From positions 62,001 through 126,000 of the forward strand of contig CANGFA010000002.1 in assembly GCA_947453145.1 (NCBI GenBank): a DNA stretch of 64,000 bases. Direction: 5' to 3'. The stretch is from Bacteroidota bacterium (lineage in GTDB: Bacteria > Bacteroidota > Bacteroidia > Chitinophagales > Chitinophagaceae). The notes beneath the pieces were generated by a model. That model had not been told where the DNA came from. It made no database searches and saw nothing but the letters and a program-made list of their open reading frames with translations. This document shows positions 30,834 through 39,914 of this stretch, one piece after another. Numbering within the stretch: position 1 is the first letter of the stretch; every line of letters starts with the position of its first letter. Made by a program: the position numbers and the translations under genes.

Positions 30834-32171
30834 TTAGCTATTCAATAATTGATTTATTTGTTGCTCAACTTTGCTAAAATGCATGCTATTTAACACTTTA
30901 TTCATGGCAGTTGCAATTTCTGCGGTACAAAGATTCCCAATACTACCTTCATGCGTATGTGCCATTTTGGTAGAATAGGTATAATTGCCATTCTCAATTT
31001 CTAACCCTATTTTTTTATAGGCATCTCTAAATGGCATTCCCTCGTTTACTAATTTATTCACCTCATCTACGCTAAACAAATATTGATATTTCGAATCCTC
31101 TAACAACCCTTCCTTCACTTCCATATTTTGTATCATTAAAGAAGCCATTTCCATACAATTTTTCAATTGCTGAAATGCAGGAAACAAATGCTCTTTTAAT
31201 AATTGCAAATCACGATGATAGCCTGAAGGCAAATTAGTAGTCATCATCATAATTTCATTAGGCAATGCTTTAATGCGATTGCAATAAGAACGGATCAGTT
31301 CAAAAACATCAGGGTTCTTTTTGTGCGGCATGATGCTTGATCCTGTTGTTAATTCTTCAGGAAATTTAATGAAGCCAAAATTTTGATTCATAAATAAACA
31401 AGCATCCATACTAAATCTGGCTAAAGTGTCCGCAAAATTAGCAAGTGCCATTGCAGTGATTCTTTCGGCCTTACCACGTCCCATTTGCGCATACACCACA
31501 TTATAGTTTAAGGTTTCAAAACCCAATAGCTCCGTAGTTCTCGTTCGGTTAATGGGAAAAGAAGATCCATAGCCCGCTGCAGATCCCAATGGATTTTTAT
31601 TCACCACCGTATATGCCGCTTGCAATACCGTCATATCGTCTACCAAACTCTCTGCATAAGCGCCTAGCCACAATCCAAAAGAGGATGGCATGGCCAATTG
31701 CAAATGTGTATAGCCAGGCAATAAATCATTTTTATGCTGTTCACTTTTTTCTTGTAATAAAGTAAATAAGGATTGAACCGACTTGCTTAAATCCATTAAC
31801 TCGGCTCTTAAAAATAATTTTAAGTCTACTAAAACCTGATCATTTCTACTTCTGGCACTGTGAATTTTTTTTCCAATATCCCCTAACTTCTCAGTTAATA
31901 ATATTTCTACTTGAGAATGTATATCTTCTACCCCTTCTGCTAATTTAAAATCACCGGACTGGATTAACGCATAAATTTCAACCAACGCTATTTTTAATTG
32001 TATTTGTTCCTCCTTAGTTAATAAGCCAACCTCCGACAACATAGTAGTGTGTGCAATGGAACCTAATACATCATAAGCTGCTAAGTACAAGTCCATTTCT
32101 TGATCCTTGCCTATAGTAAACTGTTCGACTGAACTCGCTACCTTATTATTTTTTTGCCAAAGCTTACTCAT
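30834..32171 (-). CDS. argH: Argininosuccinate lyase
   Basis: GSSIMPHKKNPDVFELIRS; EDIHSQVE; HSARSRNDQV. Confidence 0.97.
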   Translation of the reverse strand: MSKLWQKNNKVASSVEQFTIGKDQEMDLYLAAYDVLGSIAHTTMLSEVGLLTKEEQIQLKIALVEIYALIQSGDFKLAEGVEDIHSQVEILLTEKLGDIGKKIHSARSRNDQVLVDLKLFLRAELMDLSKSVQSLFTLLQEKSEQHKNDLLPGYTHLQLAMPSSFGLWLGAYAESLVDDMTVLQAAYTVVNKNPLGSAAGYGSSFPINRTRTTELLGFETLNYNVVYAQMGRGKAERITAMALANFADTLARFSMDACLFMNQNFGFIKFPEELTTGSSIMPHKKNPDVFELIRSYCNRIKALPNEIMMMTTNLPSGYHRDLQLLKEHLFPAFQQLKNCMEMASLMIQNMEVKEGLLEDSKYQYLFSVDEVNKLVNEGMPFRDAYKKIGLEIENGNYTYSTKMAHTHEGSIGNLCTAEIATAMNKVLNSMHFSKVEQQINQLLNS

Positions 32172-33270
32172 GTGTTATCATTTTATCAATTAGTTGAATA
32201 TAGGTATTTATCCCTTCTTCTATTTCTTTTACAAATATAAACTCATCTGCAGTGTGACTTCTTGCAGAATTACCTGGTCCCATTTTTAAAGTTGGAAAGG
32301 GCATTAATGCTTTATCCGAAGTAGTCACAGAACCATAATAGCCTTTGCCTAAAGCTTTACCTGCTTGAATTAATGGGTGATCCAAGGCAATGCTTGTAGA
32401 TCGCATTCTTAAGGATCTTGGTGTCACCGTTGCATTTACGTGTTTACTAATTGTTTCCAATATTTCTTCAAAAGTATACAACTCATTTACGCGAACATCC
32501 ACTACAATTTTACAAGAAGAAGGCACTACATTATGTTGTTTGTTTTCCGTTTCAATAACCGTAACCGTCATCTTAACCTTGCCTAATAATTCAGATACTT
32601 TCTCAAATTCATAATTTTTAAACCATTCAATGGTAGGCAACATTTTATACAATGCACTCTCCCCTTCCTCTCTTGCTGCATGACCCGACTTCCCAGTAGC
32701 CACTACATCCAACACCAACAAACCTCTTTCCGCAATGGCCATTTCTAGTATAGTAGGTTCTCCTACAATCCCAAAATCAATTTTAGGCAACAAAGGCAAT
32801 GCTACTTCTATTCCATCATGCCCGGATATTTCTTCCTCGGCAGAGGCAACTAAAATGATATTAAAAGGCAAATTCGTATATTCATAATAGTATAAAAAAG
32901 TGGCGATTAAACTCACCAAACAACCGCCTGCATCATTACTTCCCAGTCCAAATAATTTACCTTCTTTTTCAATAGGCGTAAATGGATCCAAGGTAAAGCC
33001 TTTATTAGGTTTCACCGTATCGTGATGCGAGTTTAATAATAAAGTAGGTTTTTTTGCATCATAGTGTGTATTCATCGCCCAAATATTATTTTTCTTTCTT
33101 TCTGTTTTAACTTTTTTCTGATGTAAATAAGCTTGTATTAAATCGGCTGTTTTATCCTCCTCTTTACTAAATGAAGGCGTAGCAATTAATTTTTCTAATA
33201 ATTGTTTTGCCTCTTGTTGTAATAATGCAATTAGAGCACTATTATTTTGTATGGTATTTGTCTGTGACAT
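32164..33270 (-). CDS. argE: M20 family deacylase, likely N-acylcitrulline deacylase (argE')
   Basis: LLNSHHDTVKPNKGFTLDPF; LGSNDAGGCLVSLIA; ASAEEEISG; in arg operon with argF'. Confidence 0.88.
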   Translation of the reverse strand: MSQTNTIQNNSALIALLQQEAKQLLEKLIATPSFSKEEDKTADLIQAYLHQKKVKTERKKNNIWAMNTHYDAKKPTLLLNSHHDTVKPNKGFTLDPFTPIEKEGKLFGLGSNDAGGCLVSLIATFLYYYEYTNLPFNIILVASAEEEISGHDGIEVALPLLPKIDFGIVGEPTILEMAIAERGLLVLDVVATGKSGHAAREEGESALYKMLPTIEWFKNYEFEKVSELLGKVKMTVTVIETENKQHNVVPSSCKIVVDVRVNELYTFEEILETISKHVNATVTPRSLRMRSTSIALDHPLIQAGKALGKGYYGSVTTSDKALMPFPTLKMGPGNSARSHTADEFIFVKEIEEGINTYIQLIDKMITHE

Positions 33271-34052
33271 TATATTTTGATTGTGGTACCTGCAGTACCG
33301 TTAATTAATTCATTCATTTTTTCGGCTTTACCAATGATGACAGATTGCACACCACCTTCTAAAGCCAAATACGCGTTGTCAATTTTAGGAATCATTCCTT
33401 CAAAAATGACTTTTTGATCTTTTAATGTACCGTAAGCCGGTCGATCAATAAACGCGATCACTGAACTAGGATCATTAACGTCTGATAACACCCCTTCTCT
33501 TTCAAATCCGTAAATTAAATGCACTTCATAATCCCTTGCCATACCAGTTGCAATGCTTTGTGCAATGGTATCTGCATTCGTGTTTAATAACTGGCCATCT
33601 CCATTATGAGTGATGGGCGCAATCACTAATTTTATACCATCGCCCAATAATTTATTTATCAAATTCTTATTCACCGCATCTACATCTCCAACAAATCCAT
33701 AATCGATTGCAGCAGCTGTTCTTTTATGCGCACTTATTAAATTTCCATCAGCTCCTGTTAATCCCATGGCATTCACACCCAAGCCCTGTAATTGTGCGAC
33801 AATATTTTTATTAATGTAACCTGCATATACCATGGTTACAATTTTCAGTGTTTCCGCATCTGTTACTCTTCGGCCTTCTAACATGGTTTGTTCAACGCCC
33901 ATACTCGTAGCCATTTGTGTGGCTAATTTTCCACCTCCGTGCACTAAAATAGCCTGACCCTTCAATTTTGAAAAAGCAGTTAAGCACAACGTTAACAATT
34001 CTGGATTGTCAACAATATTGCCTCCAATTTTAATGACGTATAATTTTTCCAT
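33270..34052 (-). CDS. argB: N-acylglutamate kinase
   Basis: VIKIGGNIVDNP; AILVHGGGKLAT; LNTNADTIAQSIA. Confidence 0.96.
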   Translation of the reverse strand: MEKLYVIKIGGNIVDNPELLTLCLTAFSKLKGQAILVHGGGKLATQMATSMGVEQTMLEGRRVTDAETLKIVTMVYAGYINKNIVAQLQGLGVNAMGLTGADGNLISAHKRTAAAIDYGFVGDVDAVNKNLINKLLGDGIKLVIAPITHNGDGQLLNTNADTIAQSIATGMARDYEVHLIYGFEREGVLSDVNDPSSVIAFIDRPAYGTLKDQKVIFEGMIPKIDNAYLALEGGVQSVIIGKAEKMNELINGTAGTTIKI

Positions 34053-34114
34053 TTTATTTTTACATGGATATTAATATCCAGTGTTTTTTAATTGGTGAAT
34101 TGCATACTATTTTT

Positions 34115-35083
34115 TTATGCATTTTTTAATATTTCAGACAACACGGTTTGTGCAGCCCATACTCTATTAGACGCTTCCTTGGTCACTAAACTATTTTCAC
34201 CGTCCAATATTTCATCACTCAATTCTACATTTCTTCTTACTGGTAAACAATGCATCACTTTGGCTTTATTGGTTGTAGCTAATTTTGCATTGGTTAACAT
34301 CCAGCTAGCATCTGTACACAACACTTTACCATAATCACTATAACTACTCCAGTTTTTAACGTACACAAAATCGGCATCTTTCAACGCTTCTTCTTGATTA
34401 TGCGTGATGGTTGCTCCATTGGTATATTGGGAATCTAATTCATACCCTTCTGGATGCGTAATTATAAAGTTTGCTGCTCCCCAAGCGTTTACCCACTGGC
34501 TAAAACTATTGGCTACACATTGTGGAATAGGTTTAATATGAGGCGCCCAGGTTAACACTATTTTAGGTTGCTTGTTTTTTAAATTTTCATTAGCATCCAT
34601 TGATTCCTTAATGGTGATCATGTCGGTTAAAGATTGTAATGGGTGTAAAGTCGCCGACTCCAAACTCACTACCGGAATTCCTGCATACTTTATAAATTGG
34701 TTGATTATTTTTTCACCATAATCATCCGCTCTATTTTGTAAGCCAGGAAAAGTCCTTATACATAATATGTCAAAATAATTACCCAAAATGGGGGCTGCAT
34801 CCTTAATATGTTCAACCGTAGTTCCATTCATAATTGCAGCCTCAGTAAATTCCAATGCCCATCCCTCTTTGTCTACATTAAATACAATAGGCTCCATTCC
34901 TAAGTTTTGAGCAGCAACTTGTGTACTTAATCTAGTTCTTAAACTTGGATTTAAAAAAAGGAGTCCAATTCTTTTATTCGTACCTAATGCTTTATCCGCA
35001 AAAGGATTGGCTTTATAGTGTAATGCTTGTTTAACCAATGCATTGATATCTTTCACATCCTTCACTGAAATAAACTGCTTCAT
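34115..35083 (-). CDS. argF': N-acylornithine carbamoyltransferase (ArgF', SOTCase/AOTCase family)
   Basis: LNPSLRTRLSTQVAAQNLG; HPLQSLTDMITI; HCLPVRRNVELSDEIL. Confidence 0.93.
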   Translation of the reverse strand: MKQFISVKDVKDINALVKQALHYKANPFADKALGTNKRIGLLFLNPSLRTRLSTQVAAQNLGMEPIVFNVDKEGWALEFTEAAIMNGTTVEHIKDAAPILGNYFDILCIRTFPGLQNRADDYGEKIINQFIKYAGIPVVSLESATLHPLQSLTDMITIKESMDANENLKNKQPKIVLTWAPHIKPIPQCVANSFSQWVNAWGAANFIITHPEGYELDSQYTNGATITHNQEEALKDADFVYVKNWSSYSDYGKVLCTDASWMLTNAKLATTNKAKVMHCLPVRRNVELSDEILDGENSLVTKEASNRVWAAQTVLSEILKNA

Positions 35084-35086
35084 GGC

Positions 35087-36238
35087 TTAATCTTGCTTTT
35101 GCTTCAAATGTTGAATCGCATTATTCAACCCGGTTATAAATAAATTAATATCCTCCATGCTAATCGCAAGTGATGGCAATAGTCTTATCACATTTGGCTT
35201 TGCTTCACCTGTAAATATTTTAAAATCATTTAGTAAAACTTTACGAATGTCCTCTAATCCGGATTCCATTTCAAATCCAATCATTAAGCCTCTACCTCTA
35301 ACTGCTTTCACTCCTTCTGTATTTTTCAATGCGTTAATTAAGTATGCTCCTTTTTCCTCGGCTGCTTTAATTAAATTTTCTTTTTGCATGATTTCAATCA
35401 CTCCTAATGCTGCTGCGCATGCTAAAGGATTTCCACCAAATGTAGTTCCTAGCATCCCAAACTTCGCTTGAATATGAGGCGTGATTAAAATGCCACCTAT
35501 TGGGAAGCCATTGCCCATGCCCTTGGCCATGGAATAAATATCTGCATTTACACCGGCATGATCGTGTGCAAAAAACTGACCAGAACGACCGTATCCACAC
35601 TGAACACTATCTGCGATATATATTGCTCCATGCGCATCACAAGCTTTTCTGATGGCTTGTAAAAAAGCATCGCTTGCTTCATAAATTCCTGCCACACCTT
35701 GAATGCCTTCAATAATCACTGCGGCAATTTCAGCACCTTGTTCAGAAAAACAGGCTTCTAATGCCTCAATATCATTAAAAGGTAAAAAGATAATATTATT
35801 TGTTTCATTCACAGGCGCTACAATACTTGGATTGTCGGTTGCAGCTACTGCTAAAGAAGTTCTTCCGTGAAAGGATTTTTTAAAAGCTATAATTTTTTTT
35901 CTTCCAGTATGGAAGCTTGCCAACTTTAATGCATTTTCATTCGCTTCAGCGCCACTATTACAAAGGAATAATTGAAAATCCTTTTTACCACTAATGTCAT
36001 TCAATGCCAAAGCCAGTTCCTCCTGAATAGGCATGATTACAGAATTAGAATAAAAAGCAATGGCATGTAATTGATCTTCAATTCTCTTTACCCAGTGTGA
36101 ATTAGTGTGTCCAATGCTTATTACCGCATGTCCACCATACATGTCTAAATATTCTTGACCCTTATCATCCCAAACACGGCTGCCTGCAGCTTTTGTGATA
36201 GCGATTGGATTTAAAGGATAAACGTTGAATAAGGACAT
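35087..36238 (-). CDS. argD: N-acylornithine aminotransferase
   Basis: YLDMYGGHAVISIGHTN; SFHGRTSLAVAAT; GTTFGGNPLACAAALGVI. Confidence 0.95.
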   Translation of the reverse strand: MSLFNVYPLNPIAITKAAGSRVWDDKGQEYLDMYGGHAVISIGHTNSHWVKRIEDQLHAIAFYSNSVIMPIQEELALALNDISGKKDFQLFLCNSGAEANENALKLASFHTGRKKIIAFKKSFHGRTSLAVAATDNPSIVAPVNETNNIIFLPFNDIEALEACFSEQGAEIAAVIIEGIQGVAGIYEASDAFLQAIRKACDAHGAIYIADSVQCGYGRSGQFFAHDHAGVNADIYSMAKGMGNGFPIGGILITPHIQAKFGMLGTTFGGNPLACAAALGVIEIMQKENLIKAAEEKGAYLINALKNTEGVKAVRGRGLMIGFEMESGLEDIRKVLLNDFKIFTGEAKPNVIRLLPSLAISMEDINLFITGLNNAIQHLKQKQD

Positions 36239-36298
36239 AAGGTTAAATTTTATATTTAAGAAATTGCGGTATGCGTTTTCTGTTACTTATTAATATTT

Positions 36299-37279
36299 TT
36301 AAAAAAAATTTGCTTTTAATTGCAACCCTGCTTCTTCGTCTAATCCAAAAATTAAATTCATATTTTGAACAGCTTGTCCAACGGCTCCTTTCAATAAATT
36401 ATCAATCACCGAATGAATAGCAATTTTATTTCCTTGCTTTTCAATATGAATTAAACATTTATTGGTATTCACTACTTGTTTTAAATCAATATTGTTTTGA
36501 GAAACATGCGTAAAAGGATGCGCTTCATAATACGCATTATATAATTCATACACGGCCTCTAAACTTAAATCACAAGCTAATACCGAAGTGACAAAAATAC
36601 CTCTTGTAAAATCGCCTCTCCAAGGCACAAAATTCACTTCCGCTTTTTGATTGCCTTGTAAAGTCGCCAAACTTTCACTAATCTCATTTAAATGTTGATG
36701 TTGCAATGTTTTATAGGCTTGGATATTATTAGCTCTCCAACTAAAGTGACTAGTTGTTGTCAATCCTTGTCCTGCTCCCGTTGAACCAGTGATCCCTGTT
36801 GTATAAACGTCTTGTAATAATCCTTTTGCAGCCAATGGCAATAAACCTAATTGGATTGCAGTAGCAAAGCAGCCCGGATTAGCGATATAATTTGACTCTT
36901 TAATTTTTTCTCTATGTATTTCAGGCAACCCGTATACAAATTGCTTATCTCCTAAAGTTGCAGTTGCCGCTAATCTGAAATCCTGTGATAGATCTATAAT
37001 TTTAATGCCTGCTTTTATTTCATTGGTTGCTAAAAACTTTTTAGCATCCCCATGCCCTACACATAAAAACAAGACCTCTATGTTTTGATCTAATTCAGCG
37101 GCAAATTTCAATTCGGTATCCCCAACTAAGTCAGCATGTACTTTACATACTGGTTCGCCTGCATTACTTGTACTGTGAACAAAAGTAATATGTGCATTTG
37201 GATGGCGCAATAATACACGCAGTAATTCACCACCTGTATATCCTGCCCCTCCTACAATTCCAATATTTACTTTTTGCAT
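36299..37279 (-). CDS. argC: N-acyl-gamma-glutamyl-phosphate reductase
   Basis: GIVGGAGYTGGELLRVLLRHPN; YIANPGCFATAIQLGLLPL. Confidence 0.97.
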   Translation of the reverse strand: MQKVNIGIVGGAGYTGGELLRVLLRHPNAHITFVHSTSNAGEPVCKVHADLVGDTELKFAAELDQNIEVLFLCVGHGDAKKFLATNEIKAGIKIIDLSQDFRLAATATLGDKQFVYGLPEIHREKIKESNYIANPGCFATAIQLGLLPLAAKGLLQDVYTTGITGSTGAGQGLTTTSHFSWRANNIQAYKTLQHQHLNEISESLATLQGNQKAEVNFVPWRGDFTRGIFVTSVLACDLSLEAVYELYNAYYEAHPFTHVSQNNIDLKQVVNTNKCLIHIEKQGNKIAIHSVIDNLLKGAVGQAVQNMNLIFGLDEEAGLQLKANFF

Positions 37280-37323
37280 TTTAATTCTATTTATAATTTA
37301 CAGTACTTGTCATTGCCCTTTAC

Positions 37324-38523
37324 TTATTTTTTATTAGCCTCTTTAACGTTATGAAAGATGCTTGTTTGATTGCCAAATATTTTGGTAAAGCCTCTCACAT
37401 CTGCACCTGTAAATCCAGTATTCATTTCACCATACTTACCAAACTTAGCACTCATCAAATCATTTGGAGATTCAATACCTAGGATTTGAAAATGGTATGG
37501 ATTTAATTGTACAAACACCTTACCTGTTACTTGCTCTTGCGAATTGGATAAATAGGCTTCAATATCACGCATTACAGGATCTAATATCTGACCTTCATGC
37601 AACCAATTGCCATAAAAAGAGGCCAATTGATCCTTCCAAGATAATTGCCATTTTGTAAGCACATGTTTTTCTAAAGCATGATGTGCTTTTAAAATCACCA
37701 TAGGAGCAGCTGCTTCAAAACCTACACGCCCTTTAATACCTATAATCGTATCTCCCACATGAATGTCTCGGCCAATTCCATAAGCACCTGCGATGGATTG
37801 TATAAATTGGATGGCTTCTGTTGGATGGGCAAATGTTTGACCATTTACATTTTTAATTTCTCCTTGCTCGAAACTAATAATCATTTCTTCAGTTGCACCT
37901 TGCTTGGTCATTTGTGTTGGCCAAGCAGATTCTGGTAACATACCTTTTGAGTTTAAGGTTTCTTTTCCTCCCACACTGGTACCCCATAATCCTTTATTAA
38001 TAGAGTAAGCTGCTTTTTCAAAATTCATTTCAACTCCTTTGCCTTTCAAGTATTCGATCTCCGCTTCTCTACTTAACTGCAAATCACGAATAGGCGTTAA
38101 AATTTCAATGCCAGGAATCATGATTTGAAAAATCATATCAAAACGAACTTGATCATTACCTGCACCCGTACTACCATGCGCCACTAATTTTGCACCTACT
38201 TTTTTAACATGTTCAGCAATGTGCAACGCTTGACTTAAACGCTCGGCACTTACACTTAAAGGATAGGTATTGTTTTTTAAAACATTACCATATACCAAAT
38301 ATTTAATAATAGAATCGTAATATCCTTTTACTGCATTTACCGTAGTATGTGTTTTCACGCCCAATGCATAAGCATGTGCTTCTACTTTTTTCAATTCCTC
38401 TTCGGTAAAGCCACCCGTATTTACAATCACACTATGCACCTCCAATCCTTTATCCTCCGTTAAGTATTTTACACAAAAGGTGGTATCCAATCCACCACTA
38501 AATCCCAATACAACTTTCTCCAT
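37324..38523 (-). CDS. argG: Argininosuccinate synthase
   Basis: VLGFSGGLDTTFCVKYL; AHGSTGAGNDQVRFD. Confidence 0.96.
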   Translation of the reverse strand: MEKVVLGFSGGLDTTFCVKYLTEDKGLEVHSVIVNTGGFTEEELKKVEAHAYALGVKTHTTVNAVKGYYDSIIKYLVYGNVLKNNTYPLSVSAERLSQALHIAEHVKKVGAKLVAHGSTGAGNDQVRFDMIFQIMIPGIEILTPIRDLQLSREAEIEYLKGKGVEMNFEKAAYSINKGLWGTSVGGKETLNSKGMLPESAWPTQMTKQGATEEMIISFEQGEIKNVNGQTFAHPTEAIQFIQSIAGAYGIGRDIHVGDTIIGIKGRVGFEAAAPMVILKAHHALEKHVLTKWQLSWKDQLASFYGNWLHEGQILDPVMRDIEAYLSNSQEQVTGKVFVQLNPYHFQILGIESPNDLMSAKFGKYGEMNTGFTGADVRGFTKIFGNQTSIFHNVKEANKK

Positions 38524-38528
38524 AGTAC

Positions 38529-39176
38529 TTATTTTTTTGTCAACCAGTTTAATAATTTGCTTTGTTTTATTTTCATAAAACGCTCGTATAATTTTGAATT
38601 CGTTTTGAACTCAGAAGCAGTCAGTTCAGGTGTATGCTCACTTTTTGGCTCATACAACATGGCCGTACACATACAATTTTTACGATCCTTACTCATCAAA
38701 ATTTCATAATTCACGCAGCTTTTACAACCCGCCCAGAATTCTTCATCGTCTGTTAATTCACTATAGGTAACGGGCTCATAGCCTAACTCACTATTAATCT
38801 TCATCACAGCCAACCCTGTTGTTAAACCAAATAGTTTTGAATTTGGATATTTTTCTCTAGACAATTGAAAAATGGTCTGCTTAATTTTTTTTGCAATTCC
38901 ACTTTTTCTAAATTCAGGAGAAACAATCAATCCACTATTGGCTACAAACTGACCATGCTGCCAAGCTTCAATATAACAAAAGCCTACCCATGTACCGTCG
39001 GCCGTGTGTGCAATCACCGATTTACCTTCCTCTATTTTTTTAGCAACATACTCGGGCGTGCGTTTAGCAATACCTGTTCCACGTGCTTTTGCAGAGGATG
39101 CCATCTCGTCGGTGATGGTTGTTGAATAATGAACGTCGCCACTATGGGCTACACGTACTATAATTTGCTGTTCCAA
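38529..39176 (-). CDS. GNAT N-acyltransferase, probable ArgA-equivalent, first gene of arg operon (TTG start)
   Basis: SGLIVSPEFRKSGIAKKIKQTIFQLSREKYPNSKLFGLTTGLAVMKINSELGYEPV GNAT motif A; operon context. Confidence 0.8.
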   Translation of the reverse strand: MEQQIIVRVAHSGDVHYSTTITDEMASSAKARGTGIAKRTPEYVAKKIEEGKSVIAHTADGTWVGFCYIEAWQHGQFVANSGLIVSPEFRKSGIAKKIKQTIFQLSREKYPNSKLFGLTTGLAVMKINSELGYEPVTYSELTDDEEFWAGCKSCVNYEILMSKDRKNCMCTAMLYEPKSEHTPELTASEFKTNSKLYERFMKIKQSKLLNWLTKK

Positions 39177-39214
39177 TGATCTGTAAAATTTAAAAAAATG
39201 ACACTTCTGGCGTT

Positions 39215-39323
39215 TCTATCAAAATTCGGTTTTTTTTCCACTGATAGGGGCAATTGCCAACTGCTCGTCCTATCAGAATCCACGTCGGGGAGAGAAACTA
39301 ACCGCAAGCGGCAACCTGATAGG
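39215..39323 (-). promoter_or_regulatory. Candidate attenuator / alternative RNA structure upstream of arg operon
   Basis: Minus-strand order: CCTATCAG (39323-39316), CTGATAGG (39276-39269), CCTATCAG (39248-39241), TGATAGA (39221-39215); 1:2, 2:3 and 3:4 complementary. Confidence 0.6.
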
Positions 39324-39392
39324 GCTGTTCAATACAGGGACCTTTGCAAAATTTGCACTTGTCATGATGATATTTTTTTGGTCCTGTTTCAT
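39273..39392 (-). CDS. Candidate 39-aa arginine leader peptide
   Basis: MKQDQKNIIMTSANFAKVPVLNSPIRLPLAVSFSPRRGF*; AAGGA about 10 nt upstream; CGA CGT tandem Arg codons near stop. Confidence 0.5.
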   Translation of the reverse strand: MKQDQKNIIMTSANFAKVPVLNSPIRLPLAVSFSPRRGF

Positions 39393-39584
39393 TTTATAAT
39401 TTTCCTTAAATAGGAATTAGGATGTAAAAGTATTAAATAATTAAATAAAATAGGGGCTATTAGGACTATAATTTGGGCTTAAAAGCCCTAAACCACCGCA
39501 TTTAGGCTTAAATTAATAGTTGTTAGTTTTATTTTGACCGTATGTAGGTGTATTTTTGTTCGTATCATCCTTAAAATAATACCT

Positions 39585-39914
39585 ATGAAAAAGATTATCG
39601 GATACTGTCTTTTGGCCTTTGTAGTACTATTTAGTTACTGCGGCAATCGTCAAGAAACAAAAATAGTACCCCCTGAAAATAATTCAACAATGCCTAACAA
39701 GGAGGAAGTGAATACAGAAAAAACTTATCCCTTAGCCTTGGTAAATAATAAAAAGGACCCTACTTGTGGCATGCCAGTAACAGCAGGAATTCATGATACA
39801 GCACATTATGAAAAATGGGTGCTAGGATTTTGCTCAAAAGAATGTAAGGATGAGGCAATTGCTGGTTTAGCTAAAAATCCAAAAGCAATTTTAGATACTG
39901 CAATTATTAAATAA
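39585..39914 (+). CDS. Small YHS-like domain lipoprotein
   Basis: Lipobox VVLFSYCG; DPTCGMPVTAGIHDTAHYEKWVLGFCSKECKDE. Confidence 0.75.
   Translation: MKKIIGYCLLAFVVLFSYCGNRQETKIVPPENNSTMPNKEEVNTEKTYPLALVNNKKDPTCGMPVTAGIHDTAHYEKWVLGFCSKECKDEAIAGLAKNPKAILDTAIIK

Follow-up and report, generated by a model that had tools for sequence, protein, structure and literature searches.

Leader-peptide attenuation is a textbook mechanism for the synthesis of tryptophan, histidine, leucine, isoleucine/valine, threonine and phenylalanine. The control of arginine synthesis is usually ascribed to the ArgR repressor or to T-boxes. In the E. coli trp, his, leu, thr and phe attenuators, a leader ORF just behind the promoter carries tandem end-product codons close to its stop, a hairpin is found at the stop codon and the operon of the pathway is located downstream. 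The locus analysed here resembles them in each of these features. It lies on the minus strand of a window (the whole stretch of DNA that was analysed, 64,000 nucleotides) from a bacterium of the family Chitinophagaceae. However, it differs from the E. coli systems in the amino acid that would be sensed (arginine), in the conserved sequence of its hairpin and in its phylum (Bacteroidota), and no conserved terminator/antiterminator pair was found.

The closest tested analogue is orf34 (SpeFL) of Salmonella speF, where slow decoding of two consecutive Arg codons sets the fold of a hairpin past the stop, and mRNA decay (PMC6386406). The Arg pair and a hairpin just past the leader stop are shared with our locus. 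In contrast, orf34 governs an ornithine decarboxylase, carries its arginines at positions 12-13 of 34 within a conserved peptide, and involves control by ornithine, Rho and RNase G as well (PMC6386406). No sequence relation between the two leaders was seen. In Staphylococcus aureus, the rbfL leader ORF senses arginine limitation via Arg codons, but the paused ribosome directly blocks the ribosome binding site of a biofilm regulator, no hairpin switch is involved and expression drops in shortage (PMC13009471).

Other arginine sensors are more distant. The fungal arginine attenuator peptide (arg-2/CPA1 uORF) also controls arginine synthesis from an upstream ORF, but it is a eukaryotic nascent-peptide arrest caused by free arginine, with a conserved peptide and no codon sensing. 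The arginine T-boxes of Firmicutes likewise sense the charging of Arg-tRNA through RNA in the 5′ UTR; unlike our leader, they bind the tRNA directly and have no leader ORF. Rfam gave no match at the gathering threshold in the window and none at E<1 in the leader, so that neither a T-box nor a known riboswitch was recognised. Within the phylum, a transcriptome study of Flavobacterium psychrophilum reports, in broad terms, attenuation by leader peptides ahead of amino-acid operons (PMC9723704). The literature searched, mostly outside subscription papers, contained no description of an arginine biosynthesis operon with an Arg-codon attenuator, and an earlier prediction is possible.

The locus seems to represent an amino-acid switch of the classic type, so far undescribed for arginine synthesis. 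In our view the 5′ UTR of this complete arginine operon probably contains a leader-peptide attenuator specific for arginine, which would sense the charging of Arg-tRNA; pausing, regulatory direction and readout we infer alike. The sensing half is of a known kind with a new amino acid, while the readout may differ from that of a classical attenuator.

The leader ORF and the arginine operon

The first gene behind the leader (38529..39176, minus strand, TTG start) encodes a GNAT acetyltransferase (Pfam PF13508/PF00583). It is followed by argG, argC, argD, an acetylornithine carbamoyltransferase gene, argB, an argE-like gene and argH (30834..38523, minus strand, NCBIfam matches), and by these matches the arginine biosynthesis operon is complete. 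From its context, the GNAT product is probably the acetylglutamate synthase. It is a distant member of its family (PRK07757 is far under the cut-off) and the operon holds no other acetylglutamate synthase; it may therefore belong to an unrecognised type of N-acetylglutamate synthase. The carbamoyltransferase (34115-35083, minus strand) is nearest to N-acetylornithine carbamoyltransferase (279.9 bits, just below the cut-off of 288), and the pathway may thus run via acetylcitrulline.

The leader ORF occupies 39273..39392 of the minus strand. It is flanked by a small divergent gene and by the GNAT gene that opens the operon. The 39-residue product MKQDQKNIIMTSANFAKVPVLNSPIRLPLAVSFSPRRGF starts with MKQDQ and ends with SPRRGF before the tandem stops TGA TAG. 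The control codons CGA CGT (39282..39287, minus strand) are the fourth and third codons before the stop. Both the ORF and its Arg codons are present as the first-pass annotation had described them. Genome annotations miss such leaders because they are short and unannotated. The divergent gene (39534-39914, plus strand), earlier called a YHS lipoprotein, matches nothing in Pfam or NCBIfam at E<=0.001.

A promoter-like box of the Bacteroidota -7 type, TTTAATACTTTTACATCC, lies just 5′ of the ORF (39420..39437, minus strand). Close relatives keep it as TATACTTTTAC with an upstream TTTGT, about 30 nt 5′ of the leader ORF. Furthermore, TAnnTTTG boxes cluster 100-160 nt 5′ of the hairpin described below (31 matches in 71 loci). 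A promoter downstream of the leader would argue against its role, as pointed out earlier; none was found, and in the 71 loci no such box occurs from the hairpin down to GNAT codon 20. The AAGGA noted 5′ of the ATG is present but is weak as evidence, since it varies in relatives and is part of a small inverted repeat, TTCCT-ATTTA-AGGAA (39402..39416, minus strand), in the presumed 5′ UTR, which itself takes a varied form in close relatives. Bacteroidota ribosomes mostly do not use Shine-Dalgarno sequences.

Conservation was assessed from 80 relatives of the GNAT gene with upstream DNA, of which 79 upstream regions were usable. An Arg-Arg pair is found within the last 12 codons of an ORF whose end lies 60-200 nt 5′ of the GNAT gene in 77 of the 79 Chitinophagaceae regions, compared with 12.5 after shuffling, and no other amino acid shows a comparable enrichment near the end of the upstream ORF in these loci. 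Divergent leaders of the family are likewise enriched in Arg-Arg (18/20 versus 2.5 shuffled). The hairpin is shared by 70 homologous Chitinophagaceae leaders. All 70 keep the frame open for 25 codons or more, against 20 and 12 for the other two frames, and always offer a start codon. In 65 distinct leader tails, arginine occupies position -4 from the stop in 58 and position -3 in 52, and it is never found at -1, -2 or -7. Codon usage is opposed to that of the surrounding genes: leader arginines are mainly CGA and CGT (52% CGA, 4% AGA), whereas the genes of the window prefer AGA (50%, with 9% CGA). Judged by these comparisons, the leader ORF is under coding selection and its Arg codons are selected at fixed positions. 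The 5′ leader of a biosynthetic operon here holds a short ORF which is probably translated and which carries tandem end-product codons close to its stop.

The expected conservation of the SPRRGF C-terminus holds for its arginines, whereas the neighbouring residues change across clades (PRPRRGC, FFRRGC, RRPRI, RIPRRR, RRNRFTFRV, SRRRRP). Close relatives share the longer pattern MKQ..H..TSA..APVPVLN..RRGF. Some of this local conservation is due to RNA structure, since a hairpin inside the ORF, H0 (39344..39358, minus strand), covaries in close relatives. It reads GTGCA/TGCAC in relatives, and its outermost pair is broken in the window. In the 22-sequence alignment A2, H0 is 93.6% paired, its outer pair covaries (GC/CG/AU) and 0 of 500 shuffles reach its covariation score.

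The hairpin at the stop codon

The first-pass annotation had proposed a switch of four segments, in which pairing of 1 with 2 and of 3 with 4 alternates with pairing of 2 with 3. All the repeats are located where it placed them: CCTATCAG at 39323-39316, CTGATAGG at 39276-39269, CCTATCAG again at 39248-39241 and TGATAGA at 39221-39215. The additional palindromes also exist (CCGCTTGCGG at 39311-39302 and GGCAATTGCC in the hairpin loop). When the 215-nt leader was shuffled 5000 times with its dinucleotides preserved, 35% of the shuffles contained some 8-bp inverted repeat, and 0.16% the arrangement of an 8-mer, its complement and the 8-mer again. Comparison between relatives argues for the leader far more strongly than these shuffle statistics.

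Only the 2:3 pairing is conserved. It is kept, with covariation, in 67/67 aligned sequences. Segment 1 is coding, and relatives read CCCCATCAG, CCCATTAG or nothing there; segment 4 is absent even from the closest relatives (L031 reads TTTTCTAGAAA). As both are peculiar to the window, the four-segment switch is unsupported.

The conserved element is a hairpin, P1-P2, on the minus strand. The 5′ arm of P1 (segment 2, 39269..39276) overlaps the TGA TAG stops and pairs with the 3′ arm (segment 3, 39241..39248). A bulge ACGA (39265..39268), near-invariant in alignment A1, separates P1 from the stem-loop P2, GCAG-TTGGCAA-TTGC (39250..39264). In Chitinophagaceae the consensus opens at the stop codon and reads CTGAYAGG-ACGA-GC(A/C)N...NNGC-C-CCYRTCAG; behind it come TGRAAA and C-rich sequence. 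One P1 pair is seen as U-A, U-G and C-G. P2 is 91.4% paired; three of its pairs change on both sides, including a compensatory change from A-U to C-G in 12 sequences. From this covariation, P1-P2 is an RNA structure, and one which adjoins the control codons and starts at the stop. The sequence of P1 is conserved beyond the needs of pairing, an excess that plain attenuation does not explain. In one relative (L081), about 200 nt 5′ of the GNAT start, the hairpin is apparently lost and a deletion fuses the Arg codon directly to the region before the GNAT start.

A covariance model of the hairpin gives 61 matches in 60 of 200 genomes of the family. By coordinates, 58 of them sit 40-80 nt 5′ of a GNAT gene; two more, read individually, also precede GNAT, and one runs off the end of its contig. 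The arg operon is therefore confirmed for 60/61, and no leader was found at unrelated, non-arginine operons. The genome studied here has one strong match. Searches of the genome and the phylum returned only weak, low-score matches to this hairpin outside the family. Clades without the P1 sequence, such as those with RRPRI leaders, mostly carry another hairpin past the stop. The earlier assignment of an arginine-specific leader ORF to the arg operon is borne out by the conservation of both the Arg codons and the stop-codon hairpin and by their occurrence at no other gene.

These elements suggest how the attenuator could work. Transcription would begin just 5′ of the leader ORF, and a ribosome would translate its 39 codons. 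When charged Arg-tRNA is scarce, the ribosome would pause at CGA CGT and its front would just reach the base of P1-P2; when arginine is ample, it would reach the TGA and open the hairpin. By known ribosome geometry, when the Arg codon at -4 or -3 occupies the A site, the front of the ribosome stands at the base of P1, and at the stop the ribosome opens P1. Ribosome position could thus be converted into RNA fold: whether the ribosome stands at the Arg codons or at the stop would set the fold behind RNA polymerase, and the operon would be upregulated in arginine shortage.

Arginine leaders and ArgR in other families

Beyond Chitinophagaceae, the GNAT-led arg operon of further families and classes of Bacteroidota is also preceded by Arg-rich leaders, which are unrelated in sequence. 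In other families, Arg-Arg near the end of the upstream ORF occurs in 23 of 40 loci, versus 6.7 after shuffling. Just before the stop, the leaders read RRFRRPSGV in family f2, RRPYMPRA in f3, RRNRFTFRV and RCRPARFVRI in f8, RRP in part of f5, and HRID...RIPRRR in f24, which belongs to another class. The codons differ as well: CGG is used in f24, CGC/CGT in f5, AGG in f8 and CGA/CGT in f1. Because families use different Arg codons, arginine itself is the conserved item. This conservation of arginine, rather than of a nucleotide motif or a peptide, points to a ribosome that senses the charging of Arg-tRNA and speaks against an arrest peptide.

Several f5 leaders (L186, L191, L196, L276-L278, L282) show a different hairpin with a conserved loop, about 20 nt past the leader stop, for example GGAAAT-AGGTGAGTCC-ATTTCC and GAACTT-AGGTGAGTCC-GGTTC. 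This is a separate RNA motif.

ArgR is absent from the genome studied here and from the sampled genomes of f1, f2, f3, f8 and f24. Conversely, in two f11 genomes (G423:C6 and G431:C1; loci L198 and L199), argR directly precedes the GNAT gene, at the place of the Arg leader in other families, and a convincing leader of this kind was not seen in them. The leader is missing from the GNAT-bearing family f4 and from some f5 genomes, and ArgR is missing there too. The presence of the leader where ArgR is absent is a suggestive association, which ignores phylogeny. A search of the own genome for CAY repeats, aimed at a histidine leader as a sister example, gave no convincing candidate.

Readout and competing explanations

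Premature transcription termination is the readout we favour, although our confidence in it is evenly balanced; control through Rho or mRNA decay, as in speF of Salmonella, ranks second and translation third. Within the main group, terminator-like elements are modestly more frequent than expected by chance (12/69 at p<=0.1). Sediminibacterium-like leaders carry terminator-like hairpins with T tracts (AAAACAC-AGAG-GTGTTTT and TGGCAG-GTAG-CTGTCA), and similar hairpins appear in several other families, in some clades and not in all. A universal intrinsic terminator was therefore discarded. In the window leader, the scan accepted no canonical terminator; CGCCAGAAGTGTCATTTTTTT (39192..39212, minus strand), a weak 4-bp hairpin with a T run, is a possible one, but at percentile 0.33 it is not better than shuffled sequence. 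Folding with the hairpin closed or opened yields no recurrent alternative structure; P1-P2 and the downstream hairpins fold together. A mutually exclusive terminator in the ribosome-at-stop folds was rejected on these grounds, and no conserved terminator/antiterminator pair emerged.

The strongest competitor keeps the same sensor and replaces the readout. Here a pause at the Arg pair would let the post-stop hairpin form (ON); once at the stop, the ribosome would melt it and expose the RNA to Rho or RNase (OFF), making an intrinsic terminator unnecessary. We regard this as possible, though clearly not the leading option. Tandem Arg codons with a hairpin downstream of the stop are a published architecture (PMC6386406), the window hairpin starts at the stop and a conserved terminator was not found. 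The stretch past the hairpin is C-rich and G-poor (C>G in 65/73; C 0.29 and G 0.11 in f24), a tendency that Rho sites share. However, this bias is weak evidence which also fits an open start-codon region, several clades do have terminator-like hairpins, and no conserved alternative fold was detected.

Translational attenuation, in which the opened hairpin frees the P2 strand (GCARYT) to pair with the GNAT start region (ARTTGG) and block initiation, appears unlikely. Complementarity does peak at the start codon (z 4.4, the top of 18 positions, with kinship ignored) and at least two co-changes occur on the tree. But the pairing is absent from several clades with GTG or ATG starts, and folding shows no real fall in start accessibility (0.44 versus 0.42). 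Occlusion of the start codon by the P2 strand was set aside, since the complementarity is suggestive and ensemble folding lends it no support.

Two further explanations move the sensor elsewhere, and we consider each of them improbable. While still in the exit tunnel, a nascent chain could stall the ribosome by binding free arginine (or ornithine), as in fungal AAP or SpeFL, and the peptide pattern shared by close relatives would suit such an arrest. Yet hairpin H0 accounts for part of that local conservation, and across clades everything but arginine changes: residues beside the pair vary freely and no conserved arrest site is discernible. Alternatively, P1-P2 could itself be the sensor, as a ligand- or protein-binding RNA to which the ORF is secondary. 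The nearly invariant P1 and ACGA bulge point in this direction, but the Arg leader is kept where other hairpins replace this one (the RRPRI group, other families) and no Rfam family matches. Finally, the two conserved 8-bp arms are very improbable as a DNA operator for a repressor with an incidental ORF, given their variable spacing (loops of 19-23 nt), U-G wobbles and covarying inner pairs, and selection on the reading frame and its Arg codons.

Returning to the attenuator that senses Arg-tRNA charging, we tentatively advance a broader proposal, which we hold with somewhat less than even confidence. A phylum-wide arginine attenuator may replace ArgR across much of Bacteroidota, and in Chitinophagaceae it may use a new readout: a sequence-conserved hairpin abutting the ribosome at the Arg codons, which would report ribosome position without a classical terminator/antiterminator pair. 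The choice of Arg codon by each family would constitute a natural experiment that could tell which tRNA isoacceptor is the best reporter of starvation. If true, the recurrence of Arg-codon leaders in different classes of Bacteroidota, in genomes without ArgR, would fill a gap and explain how the arginine pathway is controlled in these bacteria.
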